Positions 22,245-33,669 of a stretch of DNA of 33,669 bases are shown in pieces (within the stretch, counting starts at the first letter, position 1; each line of letters opens with the position of its first letter). The stretch is from NCBI GenBank assembly GCA_027365775.1, contig DAHXLX010000006.1, positions 1 to 33,669 of the forward strand, in the 5' to 3' direction. The notes under the pieces are model-generated. The model was not told where the DNA came from. It saw nothing but the letters and a program-made list of their open reading frames with translations, and did not search any database. This DNA is from Candidatus Saccharimonadota bacterium (GTDB lineage Bacteria > Patescibacteriota > Saccharimonadia > Saccharimonadales > UBA4665). The position numbers and the translations under genes were made by a program.

Positions 22245-25121
22245 CTATCTTACCACCAAACTAATTAGTTTGTTAGGCACGTATATCACTTTGACGATGT
22301 TTCTTCCGTCTAAGTAGCGACTGATTTTACTGTCCGCAGTCGCGGTTTTAAGTACCTCAGCCTGGTCTGCGCCGCTGCCAACCATGACCTGACCCCTGAG
22401 TTTGCCGTTCACCTGGACGGCGATGACGCACTCGGATGTTTGAATATAGCTCTCGTCATAACCGGGCCAACCGGAAACATGAACCGATTCATCGTTACCC
22501 AGATCATGCCATAGCTCCTCGCCGATATGCGGCGCGAACGGCGCCGTAAGTTTAACGATAGTCTCCAATGCCCACTGCCACTGAGTTGCGGCATAGTTAT
22601 CGACAGCCTTAACTTTGTAAAGTTCGTTAACGCATTCCATTAATGAGGCGATGGCGGTATTAAAACTCATACTTAACAGATCGGCGCTGACCTTTTTTAC
22701 CGTACGATTAACGATTTTCATTAGTTCGTCGGAATCAATCGTGCCGCCCGAAGTTTCGCCGTAGTGTTGCACCAGCGTCCATAACCGTTGCAGAAACCGG
22801 AAAGTACCAGCGATCGCTTCCGGACTCCACGGAGTTGTCTGATCGTACGGTGCCAGAAAAGTGATTGCCAATCTTAACGCGTCGGCACCATAGCCACTAT
22901 CGATTACATCGGTCGGATTAACTATGTTGCCCTTGCTCTTACTCATTTTCGTGCCGTCGGCCGCCAGAATAATACCTTGGCCACGACGCGCGGCATAGGG
23001 TTCGGCTGTCGGTACCAGTCCTCGATCATAAAGAAACTGATGCCAGAATCTGGAATACAGCAAATGCAGCGTCGTATGCTCCATGCCGCCAACATAGAGA
23101 TCTACCGCCCCCCAATAATCCAGTTTGCTTCTTTCGGCAAACCGTTCGTTGTTATGGGGATCAAAATAGCGCAAATAATACCAGCTGCTGCCGGCCCAGT
23201 TGGGCATAGTATCGGTTTCACGTTTGGCCGGCAGTCCGCAGACCGGACAGGTTGTGTTTACCCAATCCTCAATCGACGCCAGGGGACTTTCGCCGGTTTT
23301 TGTCGGCTCATAATGCTCTACTATTGGTAACTCGACCGGTAATTGATCATCCGGTACCGCGACTGGGCCATGCTTCGGACAGTGGATTATCGGGATCGGC
23401 TCGCCCCAATAATGCTGACGACTGAAAATCCAGTCCCTTAGCCGGTAATTTACTTTTTCCCGAGCTAGACCTTGCTTTATTAGATCGGCAACTATTTTTT
23501 CACGGGCGGCTGAACTCGGTAACTTATCATATTTACCGCTATTAACCATAACCCCTTCGTCAACAAATACTTTGCCGTTGACCAACGCGTCATAGATATG
23601 CGCATGTCCCTCGTCAACCACCAATCTCGACGCACGGTATTGATCGACCCATTTAAGCGTAAATTTATCCTGCTCGTCTTTATCCAGCCGCTGACGGGCA
23701 CGCCGGTTGCTGGTTAATTCGAATAGGTATCCGCGGATCCGGGCATAATAGTTTTTTTGCTTGACATTAGAATAGTAATAGTTGTGAACGGTGTATGGCA
23801 AACTGGCAGTTAACTTTATATCCAGATAACCGGTCTCTTCTTTAATTTCGCGCTCGGCAGCCTCAGCCGCTGTTTCACCGCGGTTAATGCCGCCACCGAT
23901 AAATAACATGCCGCCGTAACGGTCCCGCCTTGGTCCCCAGTCCAACAACAGCACATCTTGTGTGGTTGGGTCCTTCAATACAGCGACAACCGCGTCTTTT
24001 TCAATCTCGTCACCTTGAACCTTGCCGCCTACCGGTTCAACCACATATTGGATCGGCAGATTAAACTTTTCGGCAAATTGACGGTCACGTTCATCATGGG
24101 CCGGGACCGCCATAATCGCACCCGTGCCATAGCCCATAAGAATGTAATCGGCTATCCAGATCGGTATTTTGTCTTTGGTTAACGGGTTTATGGCATATGA
24201 GCCGGTAAACATGCCGGTTTTTTCCCGTTCCGTATCCTGTCGGTCGATTTCCGATTCCGTTTGGACTGAACTGATGTAACTGCGTACCCGTTCTTTCTGG
24301 GCCGGCTTGGTCAACGTTTCCACCAGCGGGTGCTCAGGCGCTAAGACAATGAAGGTTGCTCCGTATATCGTATCGGGGCGAGTGGTAAAAACAGTAATCG
24401 TAGCCTTACTGCCGGCAACCGGAAAATCAATCTCGGCACCTTTCGACCGTCCGATCCAGTTAACCTGTTGGTCAGCGATCCGGCTCGGATAGTCAACGCT
24501 GTTTAAACCTTCAATCAGCCGATCGGCGTAATCGGTTATCTTCAGCATCCACTGGTTAAGCATCTTTTTCTCCACCGGTGTGTCGCACCGTTCGTGCCGG
24601 CCGTTGACCACTTCCTCATTGGCTAACCCGGTTTTACAGAACGGGCACCAGTTGACAGCCACCTCTGCCCGATAAGCCAGTCCGGCTTCGAAAAAACGCA
24701 GGAAAAGCCATTGCGTCCATTTGTAATAATCGGGGTCGGAGGTCTTGAAACTGCGTGACCAATCGAAACTAAAACCCATACTTTCCAGTTGCGTCTGGAA
24801 GTTAGCCACATTTTCCTCGGTTGCTTGCTGCGGCGAGACTTTGTTTTTAATAGCAAAGTTTTCGGTCGGCAAGCCGAATGCATCATAGCCCATCGGAAAC
24901 AGTACGTTGTCGCCTTGCATCCGGCGGTGGCGGGCGATGATATCGCCAATCGTATACTCGCGCATATGGCCGATATGCATACCGGCGCCGGAAGGATAGG
25001 GAAATTCAGTAAGCATAACGTATTTGGGCTTGTCGCTGAAATCAATCGCCCGATAGATACCGGATGCATGCCACTGCCGTTGCCATTTAGGTTCAATCTG
25101 CTTGGGGTTATATCTCTTCAT
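22245..25121 (-). CDS. leuS: Leucyl-tRNA synthetase with Nudix domain inserted in the editing domain
   Basis: About 958 residues (numbering below from the TTG at 25127; the ATG at 25121 is the preferred start). Class I motifs are intact: HIGH at 51-54 and KMSKS at 727-731. The CP1 editing domain has TTRPDT (248-253) and GYGTGAIMAVPAHDERD (332-348). Right after LPIQYVVEP, where other LeuRS have a ~20-30-residue linker, lies an insert of about 150 residues (367-520) holding a perfect Nudix box, GGINRGE(x7)REIKEETGY (412-434); LeuRS resumes with EGVMVNSGKYDKLP. Two CPxC motifs (161, 627) may bind zinc. The C-terminal VNGKLRGQV domain is complete. The reading frame is open throughout, so the fusion is not an assembly break. 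Confidence 0.97.
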   Translation of the reverse strand: MKRYNPKQIEPKWQRQWHASGIYRAIDFSDKPKYVMLTEFPYPSGAGMHIGHMREYTIGDIIARHRRMQGDNVLFPMGYDAFGLPTENFAIKNKVSPQQATEENVANFQTQLESMGFSFDWSRSFKTSDPDYYKWTQWLFLRFFEAGLAYRAEVAVNWCPFCKTGLANEEVVNGRHERCDTPVEKKMLNQWMLKITDYADRLIEGLNSVDYPSRIADQQVNWIGRSKGAEIDFPVAGSKATITVFTTRPDTIYGATFIVLAPEHPLVETLTKPAQKERVRSYISSVQTESEIDRQDTEREKTGMFTGSYAINPLTKDKIPIWIADYILMGYGTGAIMAVPAHDERDRQFAEKFNLPIQYVVEPVGGKVQGDEIEKDAVVAVLKDPTTQDVLLLDWGPRRDRYGGMLFIGGGINRGETAAEAAEREIKEETGYLDIKLTASLPYTVHNYYYSNVKQKNYYARIRGYLFELTSNRRARQRLDKDEQDKFTLKWVDQYRASRLVVDEGHAHIYDALVNGKVFVDEGVMVNSGKYDKLPSSAAREKIVADLIKQGLAREKVNYRLRDWIFSRQHYWGEPIPIIHCPKHGPVAVPDDQLPVELPIVEHYEPTKTGESPLASIEDWVNTTCPVCGLPAKRETDTMPNWAGSSWYYLRYFDPHNNERFAERSKLDYWGAVDLYVGGMEHTTLHLLYSRFWHQFLYDRGLVPTAEPYAARRGQGIILAADGTKMSKSKGNIVNPTDVIDSGYGADALRLAITFLAPYDQTTPWSPEAIAGTFRFLQRLWTLVQHYGETSGGTIDSDELMKIVNRTVKKVSADLLSMSFNTAIASLMECVNELYKVKAVDNYAATQWQWALETIVKLTAPFAPHIGEELWHDLGNDESVHVSGWPGYDESYIQTSECVIAVQVNGKLRGQVMVGSGADQAEVLKTATADSKISRYLDGRNIVKVIYVPNKLISLVVR

Positions 25122-25132
25122 CGTCAATCAAA

Positions 25133-25141
25133 AGTATAGCA
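25133..25141 (-). promoter_or_regulatory. Extended -10 promoter element (TGCTATACT) before leuS
   Basis: On the minus strand TG-C-TATACT ends 11 nt before the leuS ATG at 25121, the same spacing as the element before the GT2 gene. No ribosome site lies between. It implies a separate, nearly leaderless transcript for leuS inside the ddl-leuS gap. Confidence 0.5.
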
Positions 25142-25191
25142 AAGATAGAGACCGATTCATCTAACTTCTTGTATCAACCAACCGCTGCCGG

Positions 25192-26346
25192 CTAATACTG
25201 TTTCAGATAGTTAGTGTCGAAAACGGTTGTCTTATGGCGGTTTTGTTCATGTCTTGCCAGGGCCAATTCCACCAGTTCGCTGACCAATTGCACACCGCTC
25301 TTGCCGGCTTTGCGCCAGTTATGAGCGTATAAGCTGCCGGGGAGCGGATTAACCTCATTGAAATAAACTGACTTGGTTTTAGCGTCGATCAACAGATCAA
25401 TCCGGGCAATGCCTGTGCAGCCCAACTCAGCATAAACATCCAGAGCCAGCTGTTCAGAACGGTGATATAAATCACGGTCAATATTCGCCGGAATCGTACT
25501 GTATCCTTGCGCGCCAGTCTGCTTGCTGCCCTTGCCCTTGCCGCCGCGCATATATTTGGTGTCGAAATCAAAAACATCGTCACCGTTTAACAACGGTTGT
25601 TCGACATATGCTGCTACCGGTTTGTCATTACCGATAATCGGAACAGTCACCTCTATTAAGTTGGCTACGGCTTCTTCGACAATAACTTTATTGTCATAAT
25701 GGGCCGCCACTTCGATTGCGTTTATTAAATCCTTTTTTTGGCTGACTTTGGTAATCCCGATGCTCGACCCCAAGTGAACCGGTTTGACAAACAACGGATA
25801 GTGTAATTTGGCCACGCGCTTAACTACCGCTTGAGTATCGGCAGCAAAGTCGGCGGCATAGAACCAGACAAATTCAGGTGTCGGAATGTTCTGGCTTGAT
25901 GTCACGATTTTAGCTAACGCCTTGTCCATGGCCAGAACGCTCGATGGCATATCGCAACCGACATAAGGCACATCCGCCAGCTCAAACAAACCCATTAGCT
26001 CGCCGTCTTCACCGTGCGTGCCATGAGTGGCCGGAAATACCACATCCAATTTGATCGCTTTGGGTTTAAGCCCTGGTTTGATAATCTTAAGCCCACCACC
26101 AAGGCTGAGCTGTATCGGCTTTTGCCGGGCCAGAAAATCACTGATCTGACCGGAGGAATACAGGCTGATGTCCTTAAGTTTCGGGTCGCTGTACCAGCGG
26201 CCTGACTTGTCGATGTAAATCGGAACCGGTTCGTATTCGCCGGACAGTTGCAACGGTTTAATTATACTGGCGATGGCGGTAACGATTGATACATCATGTT
26301 CGGTGGAACGAGAACCGAAAACAACGCCGACTTTTAACTTGTTCAT
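25192..26346 (-). CDS. ddl: D-alanine-D-alanine ligase
   Basis: 384 residues, ATP-grasp ligase joining two D-Ala for the peptidoglycan stem peptide. The N-terminal domain has VVFGSRSTEHDVS and FPATHGTHGEDGELMGLFEL; the ATP-grasp part has FVKPVHLGSSIGITKV, the lid Lys264-Tyr265 (DTKY) and the metal loop RIDLLIDAKTKSVYFNEVNPLPGSLY. A Tyr after the lid Lys is the residue associated with D-Ala rather than D-Lac specificity in Ddl enzymes. The lid region carries a Gly/Lys-rich insert (RGGKGKGSKQTGAQG). It follows murF by 24 nt and continues the hydrolase-murF-ddl unit. It is vancomycin-sensitive type by this residue (inference). Confidence 0.95.
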   Translation of the reverse strand: MNKLKVGVVFGSRSTEHDVSIVTAIASIIKPLQLSGEYEPVPIYIDKSGRWYSDPKLKDISLYSSGQISDFLARQKPIQLSLGGGLKIIKPGLKPKAIKLDVVFPATHGTHGEDGELMGLFELADVPYVGCDMPSSVLAMDKALAKIVTSSQNIPTPEFVWFYAADFAADTQAVVKRVAKLHYPLFVKPVHLGSSIGITKVSQKKDLINAIEVAAHYDNKVIVEEAVANLIEVTVPIIGNDKPVAAYVEQPLLNGDDVFDFDTKYMRGGKGKGSKQTGAQGYSTIPANIDRDLYHRSEQLALDVYAELGCTGIARIDLLIDAKTKSVYFNEVNPLPGSLYAHNWRKAGKSGVQLVSELVELALARHEQNRHKTTVFDTNYLKQY

Positions 26347-26370
26347 ATACTGGTTAAGACTACCCTCAGT

Positions 26371-27807
26371 TTAAGCATAATTGTCCGGCCAGTCGTTCTG
26401 CATCAAAACTAGATCGCCTTCGGCAACGAATTGGCTCAGGTTGTTATAAAAACCAAGCGGATCGGTCTCAATGCGAGTCTCGCCGTGATAACCACCGTCT
26501 TTCAGTCCGGCTAAAATATAATCGGTTACCGAATTACGCATCAACACCACGATATCCGGTTTGGCTTTAGCAATCAACTCACCCATTTGTTTATGAACCG
26601 CTTCCGATTGACTGCCTTGTTCGACCAAACCGGGTGTGACATAAATTTTCCGGTTGGCTTTAAGTTCACTGAGCAATTGGGTGCCGGCTTTGATGCCGTC
26701 GATATTGCCGTTATAGGTATCATCGATAACCAGAGCGCCGTCGAGCTCATATGGTTGCATACGATGTTCGAACGGAGCGGTCTTGGCAATACCGGCCTTG
26801 ATTTGTTCGTCGGTCAGACCCAGCTCCATCGCCAGTACGGCCGCTAAAGACAAGACACCAACCTGATGCCGGCCGATCAATTTACTGTTTAGATCGATGA
26901 CTGTGTGTCCCCGTTTGAGCTTAAAACTAATGCCTTTAGTGCTAACTGTTATATTGACCGCCCGCCAATTAGCGACGCCCTTTGAACCATATACAATATA
27001 GCTATCGCGTAAATAAGGTTTGACAGCGTCCGAATCACCGTTAACGTATATGTTTTTAGCTTTCAGGTACGAGGCGATTGAGAAGATGTCCTCAGCCACA
27101 GCAGCCATGGTTTTGTAATTATTGAGATGTGCCGGTGCCAATCCGGTTATCACCCCGTGAGTGGGATGAGTGTTGGCGGCAAAACGCTTCACATCACCGG
27201 GCGCTCCCTCGCCGTACTCAATTATTAATATCTGTTCGTCGCCTTTCAGCCGGGAGGCAAATTTCGCGTGCTCGATGGCCACATTATGATTGGCTTCGGT
27301 GGCGGCAACGGTTTTACCCTCGCTTAACACGGTTTTAAGCACTTCCTTCATGGTTGTCTTGCCATAACTGCCGGCAACCGCGATCTTAACTCCTGGATGA
27401 GAGGCAAATATAGCCGAAGCGCGACTGATCTTAGTTTTTTGTTTAGGTTCGACGATGTACAGTCGCCCGATCTCCAGCGGCAGTACAATCAGGTTCGGCA
27501 TGATAACCGGATAAGCAATCATGAGCGATATGCCCAGTTCCCAGTAGGCGGCCATGTTGTCGACTATACCTACGACAATCAAGCCTACTCCTGCGGCCAG
27601 TTCGACGAATATCCCTACCACCAGCCCGATCAGCAGCAACCGGGCGTAATTGGTAAGTTTCAATGATCCGCGTTTGCTGACCCGACTAAAATCTCCGGTC
27701 CGCCACAGCCAGCGCAAATAAGGGCCCGCCCGATATTCCGACGTCTGGAGCATATAGATAATAATCCGCGGAAAACGTAGTGAGTATAGCGAAAGTAGTT
27801 GGCGCAT
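26371..27807 (-). CDS. Membrane-anchored MurF-like ligase
   Basis: 478 residues. The N-terminal ~125 residues contain hydrophobic membrane segments (about 52-115) in place of the usual UDP-substrate-binding domain. The central ATP-binding Mur domain shows GSYGKTTMKE (P-loop) and the IIEYGEGAPGDVKRFA, THGVITGLAPAHL and YVNGDSDAV strands; the C-terminal domain has HRMQPYELDGALVIDDTYNGNIDGI, the MurF-type DDTYNxN motif. It would add D-Ala-D-Ala to the muramyl peptide, matching the adjacent ddl. Anchoring suggests it acts at the membrane, perhaps on a lipid-linked precursor (inference). It starts 1 nt after the alpha/beta hydrolase stop. A peptide or other Mur-family ligase role cannot be excluded. 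Confidence 0.88.
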   Translation of the reverse strand: MRQLLSLYSLRFPRIIIYMLQTSEYRAGPYLRWLWRTGDFSRVSKRGSLKLTNYARLLLIGLVVGIFVELAAGVGLIVVGIVDNMAAYWELGISLMIAYPVIMPNLIVLPLEIGRLYIVEPKQKTKISRASAIFASHPGVKIAVAGSYGKTTMKEVLKTVLSEGKTVAATEANHNVAIEHAKFASRLKGDEQILIIEYGEGAPGDVKRFAANTHPTHGVITGLAPAHLNNYKTMAAVAEDIFSIASYLKAKNIYVNGDSDAVKPYLRDSYIVYGSKGVANWRAVNITVSTKGISFKLKRGHTVIDLNSKLIGRHQVGVLSLAAVLAMELGLTDEQIKAGIAKTAPFEHRMQPYELDGALVIDDTYNGNIDGIKAGTQLLSELKANRKIYVTPGLVEQGSQSEAVHKQMGELIAKAKPDIVVLMRNSVTDYILAGLKDGGYHGETRIETDPLGFYNNLSQFVAEGDLVLMQNDWPDNYA

Positions 27808-27808
27808 G

Positions 27809-28558
27809 TTAGAGGAATCCTTCGATCAGATCCTTGGTTTTGTCCGGTTGGTCCTGGTGAATAAAATGGTCATTTGCATCAAGCACTTCAAAATATGAAT
27901 GCTTAATAAGTTCATGATACCGCTGTCCGTCGCTAAGCGGAATAGCCGGATCGTTACTGGCAAATATTAATAACACGGGCAAATCGAGTTTTGCGGCATC
28001 GGCTTGCAGATCCTGCCGAACAGTTCGTTTAAATGTCTCTTCCAGTCCCGGAACCGCCAATAAATCAGAACCGATCGTGCCATATAGCTTCCGGCGTAAC
28101 TGCTGACGTTTGGCAGTCGGCAACCATAAAGTCGTGGCTTTACCGATTTTAGCCACCGTCTTGACTGCCAGTCGCTTAGCGCCTTTTTTGTCCCGAATCC
28201 CTGAGGCGGCAATCAGTATAAGTTTGTCCGCCTTAATCTTTCCGGTCGCCAATGCCCTGACCGCTAACGCGCCGCCGTTGGAATGCCCGATCACGGCGTA
28301 TGGTCGTTTGACACCAAGCTTGAGCAAAAAATCCGCCAGAAAATCTGCATAATTGTCCAGGTCCCAGATCTGCTTCGGCGGCTGAGTCGATCCGAAACCG
28401 GGTAAATCCAACGCAATCAGCGTGTAACGTTGCCGGAGACTGGACATAAGCGCCGAAAATGTACTTAAGTTATCGCCCCAGCCGTGCAACAACACTACAC
28501 ATTTCCCTTTTCCGATAAGCTCGAAATTCACCGCAAGGCCGTCAACAATCAATTTCAT
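27809..28558 (-). CDS. Alpha/beta hydrolase
   Basis: About 249 residues from the ATG at 28558 (a TTG at 28570 is in frame). Clear alpha/beta-hydrolase fold: oxyanion region VVLLHGWGDNLSTF, nucleophile Ser in GHSNGGALA, Asp in FASNDPAIPL and His in NDHFIHQDQP. It resembles BioH/MhpC-like esterases. Substrate is unknown. It forms a tight unit with murF (1-nt gap) and ddl, so a role in cell-wall precursor metabolism or in lipid turnover is conceivable but only inferred from position. Confidence 0.92.
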   Translation of the reverse strand: MKLIVDGLAVNFELIGKGKCVVLLHGWGDNLSTFSALMSSLRQRYTLIALDLPGFGSTQPPKQIWDLDNYADFLADFLLKLGVKRPYAVIGHSNGGALAVRALATGKIKADKLILIAASGIRDKKGAKRLAVKTVAKIGKATTLWLPTAKRQQLRRKLYGTIGSDLLAVPGLEETFKRTVRQDLQADAAKLDLPVLLIFASNDPAIPLSDGQRYHELIKHSYFEVLDANDHFIHQDQPDKTKDLIEGFL

Positions 28559-28628
28559 CTGCTGCCACAATTATATATTAGTTAAGAACAAAGGCCGCTA
28601 TCGGCTGTATTGGTTTACGTCGAAATAA

Positions 28629-30192: not shown

Positions 30193-30527
30193 TGGTCAAA
30201 ACATTGGATTGTTAACCATCAGCTTTTCGGCAGTTTGCCAACCCTTGCTCAAGCAACGTCCATGCCTAAACCACCGTAGAACTTCGGCTCATGGAATAGT
30301 TATGTTTAACCCAAAACCTAATAGACTTATTTAGGCAATTCACACATAGTCAGGGCACAGCATCCCTTTGTAGTCAACCAAAGATACTTGCACGACATCC
30401 GCAACTACTCATCAACTGGACCGAAAGTTCAACCTCAGTGTTTAAGCTGACCATTGATCGGCGTTCATAAATAAGGTGCCGCTATGCCGCGCTCCTTCTA
30501 GGAGTGTATTTGCTAAACATAAATCGA
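30193..30527. other. Intergenic region between convergent genes
   Basis: 335 bases between two convergent secreted-protein genes. A 7-bp hairpin (TGATGGT at 30190-30196 with ACCATCA at 30215-30221) overlaps the stop of the cohesin-like gene, but only a short T-run follows, so it is a weak terminator candidate. Nothing else with coding or structural character is visible. Confidence 0.35.
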
Positions 30528-31238
30528 TTAAATCTGTTGCTTATTGGCAACCCCGACAACTGTGGTACGAGCTACTGCTGTGCCCGGAGCGACTGTTTCA
30601 GGAATAAAAGCGGGCGGTTGAGGTATGATGACTTCATAACCACCGAACGGTGACGATCCGTTGATTGTCTTATTTGTCTTGAAACCAGCTTCGCTTAGTC
30701 GTCTGTTGGCTTGGCTGACGGTCTCTCCGCTAACAGATGCGGGTATTAGACTAAAGTTTTTATCGCCTTCTTTGGCAACGATCTGTTTGCCGTTGTTATG
30801 ATATGTGGTCATTGGAGAATTGGCACTATTATTATGGTCAAACGTAAGCGTATCGCTGGGATATAGTTGGAGCATGGATCCGGCGGTTGTTGCTATATAA
30901 GTCTCATTCGCGGTGCAACCTTGGATGCTGGTTACCAGCGTTTTACCCTCATCTGACTGAGGCAACTGCTTGACTAGACTTTCATTATTCTGCAACTTAA
31001 TGTTTATAGCGTTAGCACTAACTAGACTGGAGAATTGCAAATCGTTTTTAAGGAGTTGTACGGACGCCATTAAGCATTTTTCGCCAGCTTTAAATGCGAT
31101 TGCTAATTTAGCTTGATTTGGTTCTTCGGTAACGCTTTCTGCTAACACTACTGTCGATTTAGGTTGTGGCGCTGTTTTAACGGCGAACGTAGAACCTAAT
31201 ACTAGGACGGTTGTGGCAGCTATCTCAATGTTACGCAT
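30528..31238 (-). CDS. Secreted protein with PASTA-like C-terminal domain
   Basis: 236 residues. The N-terminus (MRNIEIAATTVLVLGSTFAVKTA) is a short signal-like hydrophobic segment without the usual basic cluster. The middle (~30-150) has two Cys and is unrecognised. The C-terminal ~80 residues (IPASVSGETVSQANRRLSEAGFKT ... APGTAVARTTVVGVANK in pieces) follow the PASTA pattern of a helix AxxxLxxAGF, then a strand and PGTxV. PASTA domains bind peptidoglycan fragments or beta-lactams. An AAAGGAGAG ribosome site lies before the ATG. It is alone on its strand. The PASTA call is by eye and moderate. Confidence 0.7.
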   Translation of the reverse strand: MRNIEIAATTVLVLGSTFAVKTAPQPKSTVVLAESVTEEPNQAKLAIAFKAGEKCLMASVQLLKNDLQFSSLVSANAINIKLQNNESLVKQLPQSDEGKTLVTSIQGCTANETYIATTAGSMLQLYPSDTLTFDHNNSANSPMTTYHNNGKQIVAKEGDKNFSLIPASVSGETVSQANRRLSEAGFKTNKTINGSSPFGGYEVIIPQPPAFIPETVAPGTAVARTTVVGVANKQQI

Positions 31239-31545
31239 AGTATCTCTCCTTTAACTTATTATTTATAATAATATTTGTATAACGTTTTACCATGAAGCCT
31301 ATTGGCACTTAACCTGCCCGTGCAGTTCGAGAACCGATGATGATGATAGTCAACTGCCTACCTGCACCTGTTGTGCCGGCCATTCTTGATCTTGCAACCG
31401 AGTTTTGAGTAATTTAAAACCGATCGCTACCTTTTATGGATAACGTCACCAATCTTGTCAAGTCAACACACGACGGATGGTGCTAAAATATCAGTGCTCA
31501 TATTGACCACTACTGAGTGGCATGAATCAATACTAGTCATACTAA
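31239..31545. other. Intergenic region, nothing recognised
   Basis: 307 bases between the divergent PASTA-like gene and the frameshifted membrane gene. It is AT-rich next to the PASTA-like gene (31255-31285), where its promoter should lie. No tRNA, hairpin or convincing short gene is seen; the frame at 31455-31679 overlaps the next gene and has no ribosome site. Confidence 0.35.
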
Positions 31546-31876
31546 ATGAGTGCAGTACGCTTCTCCTCAGACCGAGATATCAGGTTCCTGTTGTGGTGTC
31601 AGCTGATATTGACTTCCCTGCTAATTATAGCCGCCGCAATTGCCTATTTGTTGTTTACGTCTCACTTCGACTTCGCTAGCAGAAAACAAACCTACAATAA
31701 GCTAGGATTAATATTGCCCATCCTGGCGACTGTCGGCGTTGTCTTGTCCTAATATCTTGACGCGCTGGGCTCGACGAGTATCGTCCTTACAGCGCTTTAT
31801 AAGCCTTACCAATGTATTGCTGTTCGTCGCTTTATTCTGCTTGGCGCTTATTCAATTCTTCTTGGAAATCAACTAG
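31546..31876 (+). pseudogene. Small three-helix membrane protein, split by a one-base frameshift
   Basis: The first 68 codons from the ATG at 31546 encode two membrane helices (about 15-40 and 53-68) joined by a basic loop, and end at TAA (31750-31752). Directly downstream in the next frame (31751-31876) the reading continues as ILTRWARRVSSLQRFISL followed by a third helix NVLLFVALFCLALIQFF and a TAG. Removing one A from TAATATC at the junction would join them as VVLSYILTRWARR, which gives a plausible small integral membrane protein of ~108 residues. This may be a recent mutation, an assembly error, or less likely a recoding site. The family is not recognised. Confidence 0.55.
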
Positions 31877-32007
31877 ACCGACTGCCCCACGCTAAAAAAT
31901 CGCCAAGCATTCATGTCACGCGCCGCTTAACATAGACACACTGTTTCGTTCACTAGGCAGCAATATATAACTAAATAAGCGGCGACTATACCCTCAAAGC
32001 AAGTAAT

Positions 32008-32016
32008 TGATATAAT
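32008..32016 (+). promoter_or_regulatory. Extended -10 promoter element (TGATATAAT)
   Basis: Same 9-mer as before the GT2 gene, here ending 7 nt before the ATG at 32024, so transcription should start at the ATG itself. No ribosome site and no -35 are visible. Confidence 0.6.
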
Positions 32017-32023
32017 TACAACT

Positions 32024-32362
32024 ATGGACAGTATCTCCAAGAAAGTAACCAAGCGGTGGAAGATAGCTTTCTGGATTACCTTAGTCCTTTTTGTTGGGGT
32101 TTCCATAATTTCTTCGGTGAAAACCAATACGATTAATAACCTACAGAGCCAAGTTAGCCAGCTACAAAGCCAAAACAGCCAATTAATAGATAAATACAAT
32201 AAGCTAGTTAATGAATATAATTCGCTTACAAGTAGTAACGCTCAGGCAAGACAAAAATGTATCAGTAACGCCGAAAGTTTAGGAGCGCTTGACCCATTAG
32301 TATGGGGCAATAATGTACAGGCGGAAGTAAATGGCTGCCAAGCTGAATACCCTACTAATTAG
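32024..32362 (+). CDS. Small single-pass membrane protein with coiled coil
   Basis: 112 residues: a basic N-terminus (KKVTKRWK), one membrane helix (about 14-31), a Gln/Asn/Leu coiled coil with clean heptads (about 36-70, INNLQSQVSQLQSQNSQL), then a short C-terminal part with two Cys (79 and 104) that could form a disulfide outside. No family recognised. A good terminator follows 44 nt after the stop and an extended -10 box precedes the start, so it is a self-contained transcription unit with a predicted leaderless mRNA. Confidence 0.75.
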   Translation: MDSISKKVTKRWKIAFWITLVLFVGVSIISSVKTNTINNLQSQVSQLQSQNSQLIDKYNKLVNEYNSLTSSNAQARQKCISNAESLGALDPLVWGNNVQAEVNGCQAEYPTN

Positions 32363-32405
32363 TTTGCAGCCCTCGCTATAAAGAGTTAATATACTAGACA
32401 TACAA

Positions 32406-32438
32406 AGCCTTTGAGTGCTACAGCTCAGGGGCTTTTTT
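32406..32438 (+). terminator. Rho-independent terminator
   Basis: A 10-bp stem, AGCCTTTGAG with CTCAGGGGCT (two T-G pairs), an 8-nt loop TGCTACAG and the run TTTTTTG directly after. It ends the transcript of the coiled-coil protein at 32024 and separates it from the tRNA gene that starts at 32461. Confidence 0.85.
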
Positions 32439-32460
32439 GTTTTTTAAAAATGGTAAGCAT

Positions 32461-32535
32461 GGGGCAATCGTATAGCGATTATTATAGGTACTTGCGAAGT
32501 ACAAGAGCGGAGTTTAACTCTCCGTTGCTCCACCA
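32461..32535 (+). tRNA. tRNA-Arg(GCG)-like gene with encoded CCA
   Basis: 75 bases fold into a cloverleaf. Acceptor stem GGGGCAA (32461-32467) pairs with TTGCTCC (32525-32531, one G-T pair), followed by discriminator A and CCA. The D arm is weak (GTA/TAT, loop TAGCGATTAT). The anticodon stem GGTAC/GTACA has four pairs plus a G-A mismatch at the top, and the loop TTGCGAA gives anticodon GCG (codons CGC/CGU, Arg). The variable loop has four bases and the T arm is CGGAG/CTCCG with loop TTTAACT. Unusually, the position normally G19 is A and C56 is T, so the D-loop/T-loop tertiary pair would be A-U. The amino-acid identity is read from the anticodon only. Confidence 0.72.
32487..32500 (+). repeat. 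14-nt direct repeat, copy 1 (tRNA anticodon arm)
   Basis: GGTACTTGCGAAGT spans the 5' anticodon stem, the whole loop and the start of the 3' stem of the tRNA. An identical copy lies 83 bases downstream at 32570. It is the kind of segment used as an integrase attachment core, though no integrase is present. Confidence 0.6.
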
Positions 32536-32543
32536 ACATTATA

Positions 32544-32569
32544 AAGAGAGCCGAAAAAGCGGCTCTCTT
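32544..32569 (+). terminator. Perfect 10-bp hairpin after the tRNA, likely terminator
   Basis: AAGAGAGCCG-AAAAAG-CGGCTCTCTT forms a flawless 10-bp stem with a 6-nt loop, 8 nt after the tRNA CCA. The T-run is short (only the end of the stem), so it may terminate weakly or act as a processing signal for the tRNA precursor. Confidence 0.5.
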
Positions 32570-32602
32570 GGTACTTGCGAAGTGACTATACTATAGCACT
32601 TC
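32570..32602. repeat. Second anticodon-arm copy fused to a long inverted repeat
   Basis: GGTACTTGCGAAGT (32570-32583) repeats the tRNA anticodon arm exactly. Its end runs into an inverted repeat: GAAGTG-a-CTATA (32579-32590), one central C, then TATAGCACTTC (32592-32602), 11 pairs with one bulged A. Such an arrangement fits a recombination site or the outer end of a mobile element. Its partner site is not in the window. Confidence 0.5.
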
Positions 32603-32639
32603 CTAATTTAGGACGTCCACTAATCATGCGGACGATATA

Positions 32640-33540
32640 TTCAAGATGTCTGAATATACTTGTCATACTAGGAACTATTACACCTTGACTTCTGTACTCC
32701 AAAGGAGTATACTTATAGGTAAGATGAGGTATACTAAGAAGCAATTTGAAGCTGAATATCCTAATGATGATGCTTGTCTCGAAGCTATCTTTCAGGACAG
32801 GTTTGGACATGTTAAGTTTTGTCCCTCTTGCGGAGCTGAGACTAAGTTTTACCGTGTTCGTGGTCGTCAGTGTTATGCCTGTAAATGGTGTTCTTACCAG
32901 CTATTCCCTCTAGCTAATACAATATTTAGAAAAACTACTACTCCACTAACTGATTGGTTCTATGCTATCTATATGTTTTCTACCCATAAGAATGGAGTAT
33001 CGGCTAAAACACTAGAACGTGAACTAGGAGTAACCTATAAAACTGCTTGGAGAATGTGTAAGCAAATAAGACTGCTCATGCAACAAGAGAATGAGAAGCT
33101 ATCGGGTGAAGTTGAGTTAGATGAAACATATATTGGTGGACGACATAAACAAAGTATGAAGTTTGATAAAAAGAACCTGTTTTTGGCATTGTTGAGCGAG
33201 GCGGTAGAGTAAAAGCTCAGCATGTTAGAAGTACTGGGGCTAGAGTACTGCTGCCAATTATTGAAGCTAACCTAGAGCTTAATAGCATAGTCAACAGTGA
33301 TGAATATAGGGCTTATAGTTCTTTAACTATACGAGGTTACACTCATACTACGGTTAATCACTCAACACTAGAGTATGTTAGGGGCAATGCTCATACTAAT
33401 ACTATTGAAGGCTTTTGGTCTCAACTGAAGCGTTCGATTGATGGTACTTACCACGCTGTTTCGCCGAAGTACTTACAGTCCTATGTTGACGAGTTCGTTT
33501 TCCGTTATAACTTTCGGGGTGTAGCTGTGGGTCGACCGCC
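32640..33540 (+). mobile_element. Remnant of an IS1595-family insertion sequence
   Basis: The transposase and its AT-rich flanks mark an insertion sequence remnant. The right end is missing: family-like coding stops near 33515 and unrelated sequence with the tail of a minus-strand gene follows. Without the right terminal repeat the left end cannot be fixed; it lies between the inverted repeat at 32579 and the hairpin at 32695. Boundaries are approximate. Confidence 0.6.
32695..32709 (+). promoter_or_regulatory. Hairpin upstream of the transposase start
   Basis: TACTCC-AAA-GGAGTA is a 6-bp hairpin whose 3' arm contains GGAG, 16 nt before the transposase ATG. It may form part of the element's left end or mask a ribosome-binding sequence; the GGAG is rather far from the ATG to be the main site. 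Confidence 0.4.
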
Positions 33541-33562
33541 TCCAGGACGGCTATTCTTTTGA
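32724..33562 (+). pseudogene. IS1595/ISXO2-type transposase, frameshifted and 3'-truncated
   Basis: From the ATG at 32724 the N-terminus carries a zinc ribbon (CPSCGAET, then CYACKWCSYQLFP) and the helix TFEREL-like region, then the first DDE part SGEVELDETYIGG with its Asp/Glu. At about 33170-33176 the frame must shift by -1: the 0 frame stops at 33212, whereas the -1 frame continues as VFGIVERGGRVKAQHV, then VNSDEYRAY (second Asp) and NAHTNTIEGFWSQLKRSI (third catalytic region). The run TAAAAAG (33167-33173) at the junction could slip, but a mutation is simpler. After FRYNFRG the protein departs from the family C-terminus and stops at TGA (33560), so the 3' end has been lost. Codon use is more AT-rich than neighbours. 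Confidence 0.85.
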
Positions 33563-33669
33563 CCGGTTAAGCTCAGCCATGGCTTTGCCCAGCATTTTAT
33601 ATAGCTGTTCGTTTTCCTTACCAAGCCGGTTATTATCCAGAATAAAATTACGATCATTATCTACAATAC
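33551..33669 (-). CDS. C-terminal end of an unknown gene (runs off window)
   Basis: The minus strand is open from the window edge to a TAG at 33551-33553. It reads as a charged, helical, leucine-zipper-like tail of ~38 residues (NRLGKENEQLYKMLGKAMAEL in pieces, ending NRSKE). It overlaps the last 12 bases of the transposase remnant, so its stop lies at or next to the junction with the broken element. The protein may have been truncated by the insertion. No family can be named from this end. Confidence 0.55.
   Translation of the reverse strand, partial: IVDNDRNFILDNNRLGKENEQLYKMLGKAMAELNRSKE

Follow-up and report, generated by a model that had tools for sequence, protein, structure and literature searches.

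Small antisense RNAs that lie beside their targets on mobile elements are familiar from type I toxin-antitoxin systems and from the RNA-OUT of IS10, where the targets are mRNAs. In the RNA toxin-antitoxin CreTA of type I CRISPR-Cas systems, CreT uses codons to sequester a rare tRNA, and CreA is a CRISPR-like guide that represses the creT promoter together with Cas proteins (PMC8501985). The tRNA-ProX family of Streptomyces (tRNA-ProA/N/T with ProRSx), on the other hand, consists of tRNAs of mixed identity that mistranslate and are toxic when expressed in E. coli (PMC10365949). Herein, we describe a locus that may join features of all of these, namely a candidate transposon cargo of two RNAs (a tRNA-like and a dedicated antisense small RNA, sRNA) for control or addiction. 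We put the chances of this reading at about even.

The window, i.e., the whole 33,669-nucleotide stretch analyzed here, is a complete contig of a 715-kb, 70%-complete bin, which its relatives assign to the Saccharibacteria. Its tRNA-like gene (32461-32535, plus strand) has an Ala-type acceptor (G3:U70, A73, CCA), Gly-like D and T arms, an A19-U56 pair, and the anticodon GCG. The gene lies 480 bp inside an IS1595-type transposon, the left terminal inverted repeat (TIR) of which (GGCGACTATACCCTCAAAGCAAG, 31981-32003, plus strand) was matched with 0 mismatches. The suggestion of the preliminary description that this might be a specialized or mobile-element tRNA was thus well placed. Between the TIR and the tRNA-like lies a passenger open reading frame (32024-32362, plus strand) for 112 amino acids with an apparent N-terminal membrane segment and a coiled coil, without a confident family. 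Downstream, the IS1595-family transposase (32646-33535, plus strand) retains the IS1595 zinc ribbon, is frameshifted near 33170, and is diverged after 33535; its predicted promoter (TTGACT-17 nt-TATACT, 32685-32713, plus strand) was read from the sequence. No right TIR is present up to the contig end at 33669. From 30500 to 33669, the GC content falls from about 50% to 40% toward the contig end, and because this fall begins before the transposon, more of the window end than the transposon may have been acquired. Elsewhere in the window (22245-28570), a leucyl-tRNA synthetase with an inserted NUDIX domain adjoins a D-Ala-D-Ala ligase and a Mur-type ligase.

What the preliminary description overlooked is a second copy of part of the anticodon arm, with which a predicted antisense sRNA would begin. 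In the window, 14 nt of the arm (GGTACTTGCGAAGT, tRNA positions 27-40, 32487-32500, plus strand) are repeated exactly downstream (32570-32583), where the minus strand reads as an antisense seed, ACTTCGCAAGTACC, starting at the predicted +1. An extended -10 promoter (TGC TATAGT, 32590-32598, minus strand) stands 6 nt before the seed, and a terminator hairpin, T2 (AAGAGAGCCG/CGGCTCTCTT, 32544-32569), has its U-rich side on the minus strand. Seed, T2, and tail together would give an sRNA of about 48 nt (32536-32583, minus strand). Judging from promoter and terminator, we predict that it stands free and that its 5' seed is mostly single-stranded; its target would be the anticodon-arm segment. On the other side of the tRNA-like, a hairpin resembling an intrinsic terminator with a U-run (T1, 32404-32446, plus strand) ends about 15 nt before the gene. 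We also observed an inverted repeat that flanks the -10 on the minus strand in several modules, among them the window (32578-32601), L249, L360b, and L363, with one arm lying in the seed and varying with it.

This layout is not confined to the window. Intact modules number 11, the window and ten others (L249, L355, L358, L359, L360, L362, L363, L368, L374, and L360b), from ten genomes of several families, and their tRNA bodies and anticodon arms differ. When the tRNA-like is compared with the 220 nt downstream, the longest exact repeat in ten of them measures 11-15 nt and always falls in the anticodon arm (shuffled maximum 8-10). L249, from the same genus as the window, has a different arm, and it is the sequence of that arm, CGGGTACCTGTCA, that is repeated downstream. 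The eleventh module, L360b, lies beside a truncated transposase in L360 and was found when about 790 ARAGORN hits were scanned as a control; no ordinary unduplicated tRNA in that scan had a repeat of at least 11 nt, the other matches of this length being a tandemly duplicated tRNA-Met and GC-rich spurious calls. In all 11 modules a -10 hexamer stands 5-8 nt ahead of the seed (with an extended TGN in eight), so the second copy begins where transcription should start, and a hairpin follows the seed immediately. The predicted sRNA is roughly 41-51 nt long in most modules, and a T1-like terminator hairpin lies upstream of the tRNA-like in nine of the 11. Not all of the tRNA-likes look able to decode, since several are degenerate (L358 in the anticodon loop, L359 with C33, L363 without CCA, and L368 with an abnormal T loop).

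The window was compared with L359, which comes from a different family of the order. Their tRNA bodies differ at 3 of 58 positions and their anticodon arms at 10 of 17 (p=4.9e-6), and each downstream copy matches its own arm. To judge by these sequences, anticodon arm and downstream copy clearly co-diversify. The complementarity is also specific to the partner: mean duplex energies are -22.6 kcal/mol for a module's own pair, -8.1 kcal/mol with other modules, and -8.7 kcal/mol with host tRNAs.

The main rival of the two-RNA cargo makes the sRNA the active partner. Its seed would block another RNA or the anticodon loop of whichever host tRNA shares the anticodon (for the window, Arg GCG), and the tRNA-like would be a decoy or stabilizer that titrates the sRNA. 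A host tRNA could indeed be the target, since some seeds pair moderately with a host tRNA of the same anticodon, and when 150 host tRNAs are compared, the seeds of the window, L359, L368, and L360b each pair best with one that shares the anticodon of the tRNA-like. Such a match is trivial, however, given the shared anticodon loop, and the pairing is weaker than that with the own tRNA-like by about 5-9 kcal/mol or more. Likewise, the free-standing form of the predicted sRNA would suit an effector, but a pure decoy has no need of an intact acceptor, CCA, and T arm. Further targets did not come forward: the window seed, at up to two mismatches, has no other match in its own genome bin, and the seeds, compared with their own elements, found nothing clearly above chance, for which reason the transposase mRNA and the passenger were rejected as targets. 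Overall, we regard an effector role for the sRNA as unlikely.

The amino acid identity of the tRNA-like bears on a second alternative. The preliminary description assigned it to tRNA-Arg and considered the anticodon GCG uncommon for Arg. The anticodon is confirmed, but it is normal in this family, where a tRNA-Arg(GCG) pattern has a match in 65 of 93 genomes, nearly all of them ordinary tRNA-Arg(GCG), and the Arg identity itself is doubtful. The acceptor is identical to the tRNA-Ala(UGC) acceptor of relatives, including A73 and G3:U70, the identity pair of tRNA-Ala, whereas the anticodon is not of the Ala type (NGC). The D arm is one base (A19) away from the D arms of the family's tRNA-Gly(UCC), and the body as a whole is nearest to tRNA-Gly and not of the Arg type. 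The window tRNA-like is evidently a mosaic and not an ordinary tRNA-Arg. Similar mixtures occur in the other modules: G3:U70 without an Ala anticodon is seen in the tRNA-likes of five of the 11, and some others combine Arg-like bodies with other anticodons. A blastn search for an orthologue of the tRNA-like in the genus (60 relatives) found none. A pattern combining an Ala acceptor with a Gly D arm was set aside, as it returned normal tRNA-Ala(GGC) genes (two genomes) and phage tRNA-Ala genes and no GCG chimera. As a separate observation, the normal tRNA-Ala(GGC) genes L065 (genome G068) and L066 (genome G050) have a body of the Gly type (TCGTATAACGG...), an apparent remoulding of identity from tRNA-Gly.

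The gene might nonetheless be a plain cargo tRNA that supplements the decoding of CGC and CGU, like the tRNAs of phages and plasmids, with the repeat being incidental. We consider this improbable. It would agree with the good tRNA score and the GCG anticodon; CGC occurs 53 times and CGT 58 times in the window's main genes, and the search of the 70%-complete bin turned up no canonical tRNA-Arg(GCG). Yet an Ala-type acceptor on a Gly-like body is not what an Arg tRNA should have, a normal tRNA-Arg(GCG) is almost always present elsewhere in the family, and the copying of the anticodon arm recurs in eleven modules.

The boundaries of the transposon bear on the nature of the repeat. The intact relatives L054 and L359 encode both the zinc ribbon and DDE_Tnp_IS1595, and in relatives with both ends the tRNA-like follows the left repeat and precedes the transposase. 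TIRs at either end and 8-bp target duplications are seen in complete relatives; perfect duplications together with TIRs surround six elements, five with an intact module and one remnant (L249, GCGCAGAA; L251, CTTTTGGC; L358, TATATTGT; L359, CAAAACCA; L360, TAGCTGGT; and L362, ACCGTTCG). Somewhat less probable still than a cargo tRNA is the view that the repeat is a DNA-level feature without any sRNA, for example, a site at which recombination or integration takes place, or a scar that duplication left in the anticodon arm. Anticodon loops of tRNAs are common integration sites, and L251 looks like the result of a deletion between the two repeats. The TIRs and target duplications, however, place the whole module inside the transposon and off the insertion junctions, and they rule out the element integrated into a tRNA anticodon loop that L251 had suggested. 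Moreover, every copy comes with a -10 at a fixed distance and a terminator, and the copies are wholly different between elements and match within each.

Among the matches listed (153 distinct IS1595-type loci) and in the scan of ARAGORN hits, modules accompany closely related transposases of the order and no others; no module was found in the relatives examined outside the order, and blast searches of phages and plasmids with the module gave no match. In L250, L252, L354, and L329, the slot of the module upstream of the transposase holds a different structured RNA. In it, an inner hairpin is enclosed by a helix of about 10 bp (like GGGTGAG/CTCATCC), with TCTGG(CCA) and a minus-strand terminator behind it; the versions in L250, L252, and L329 had no match in Rfam. 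Passengers vary as well. L249 (3436-4128) and L251 (3364-4071) encode on the minus strand a protein that by eye resembles a proteasome-type hydrolase (no match in Pfam), in place of which L362 has an NYN-domain protein.

The fold itself leaves little room for decay. The preliminary description had recognized a tRNA cloverleaf at this position, had noted that A19-U56 replaces the conserved tertiary pair G19-C56, and had argued from the compensated change that the molecule is functional or formerly functional; the first two points are confirmed, and the third is supported. The acceptor stem (GGGGCAA/TTGCTCC) is paired throughout with one G3:U70 wobble, the T stem has no mismatch, ACCA is encoded, and all helices are intact but for one anticodon-stem pair. 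A local Rfam search of the region (RF00005) gave 41.7 bits (E=1.4e-7), clear of the gathering score of 29. ARAGORN, which had been proposed as a check, misses the gene at default settings, as does a fast whole-window Rfam search, and calls it tRNA-Arg(gcg) at relaxed thresholds. The Rfam alignment places A at position 19 and U at position 56. Of 150 tRNAs gathered in related genomes, every one reads TTC at positions 54-56, which makes U56 a true exception. The pair is a genuine compensated one, since the homologous tRNA-like of L359, from another family, repeats A19-U56 and the homologue L249 has G19-C56. Across the stems of these three, 98.4% of pair cells are standard and six double changes occur, A19-U56 versus G19-C56 included. 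It is suggestive, if with three related sequences statistically not strong, that A19-U56 is a compensated state within a structure under selection. A pattern search with A19 and U56 matched two viral contigs and none of the genomes. The swap also exists outside the window's transposon, in the phage tRNA-Ala(UGC) genes of the viral contigs L156 and L185, which have a Gly-type body.

A decaying tRNA pseudogene is, in our opinion, very improbable. The 41.7 bits do lie below the scores of the genome's other listed tRNAs (52-77 bits), ARAGORN is silent at default, and the accompanying transposase carries a frameshift, but the nearly complete helices and the compensatory changes among homologues argue the other way, and the covariation largely refutes this reading. 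Barely credible is a non-proteinogenic role in building peptidoglycan bridges, as known for staphylococcal tRNA-Gly, in which conserved G18/G19 contacts are altered too: the altered 19-56 pair, the Ala-type acceptor, and the Ddl and Mur-type ligase encoded in the window would fit, but the gene is transposon-borne with no orthologue found in 60 relatives, and against a FemXAB role, its own 70%-complete bin gave no match to FemAB (PF02388).

We thus return to the two-RNA cargo, carried by an IS1595-family transposon of Saccharimonadales-type bacteria. The sequences at hand lend good support to its location on a transposon, to a tRNA fold whose stems covary, to the exact arm copies, to the promoter-seed-terminator layout, and to the co-diversification. 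One RNA would be the tRNA-like, with a tRNA fold and a mosaic identity (in the window, Ala acceptor, Gly-like body, and GCG), and the other a short sRNA from the opposite strand just downstream, which opens with 11-15 nt of complementarity to its own tRNA-like's anticodon arm and ends in a terminator. We infer that both RNAs are expressed and pair in vivo, most likely with the sRNA binding the anticodon arm at its loop and 5' strand, opening the stem, and keeping the tRNA-like inactive. A free tRNA-like would be charged (G3:U70 predicts alanine) and would mis-decode or clog translation, which may make it toxic. The pairing of a stable tRNA with a labile antisense RNA would follow an addiction or self-limiting logic that favors retention of the transposon, since after loss of the element the stable tRNA would persist and its labile partner would not, and the pair could in this way serve maintenance. 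The T1-like hairpin upstream (nine of 11 modules) would limit expression of the tRNA-like further.

Critically speaking, several features count against this model. The sRNA promoters have no evident -35, the U-run of T2 in the window is poor, and with T1 ending so shortly before the gene, it is doubtful where the tRNA transcript originates; several tRNA-likes are degenerate, and the window copy has a frameshifted transposase. It is only tentatively, as a possibility we hold to be on balance not probable, that we propose a new class of RNA-only addiction module, with a mis-decoding tRNA-like toxin of exchangeable anticodon arm, an antisense antitoxin of about 45 nt with a co-diversifying seed, and each pair private. 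If true, this would mean a further principle of toxin-antitoxin action or of control, one whose weapon is the identity of a tRNA, and it would account for mosaic tRNAs on the transposons of reduced-genome bacteria. Naturally diversified, apparently orthogonal tRNA/antisense pairs would become available, and anticodon-based tRNA annotation in such genomes could mislead.

To our knowledge, a tRNA accompanied by an antisense RNA of its own, directed at the anticodon arm, is not part of any known system. Our literature search found no description of a tRNA-antisense module on transposons, an absence that is not proof of absence, and the layout recurring in 11 modules suggests an RNA-versus-tRNA module for control or addiction that has not been described. 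The transposons of this kind share, in their intact members, the PF12760 zinc ribbon, the PF12762 DDE domain, the TIRs, and the 8-bp target duplications of the IS1595-family insertion sequences with passenger genes (the window copy shows the zinc ribbon and the left TIR), and they differ by a cargo of tRNA and antisense sRNA that is undescribed in the literature found. As in tRNA-ProX, body and anticodon come from different amino acids, whereas tRNA-ProX is chromosomal and paired with a synthetase, without antisense RNA or transposon. With CreTA, the module has in common two small RNAs side by side and a toxin that acts, in the case of CreTA, on tRNA supply; here, in contrast, the partner is itself a tRNA, and direct antisense pairing is predicted. 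Closest in logic are the type I toxin-antitoxin systems and IS10 RNA-OUT, with an antisense RNA adjoining its target on a mobile element and a stable target facing a labile antisense, although the target of the transposon module is a tRNA-like and its seed a displaced copy instead of an overlapping transcript.
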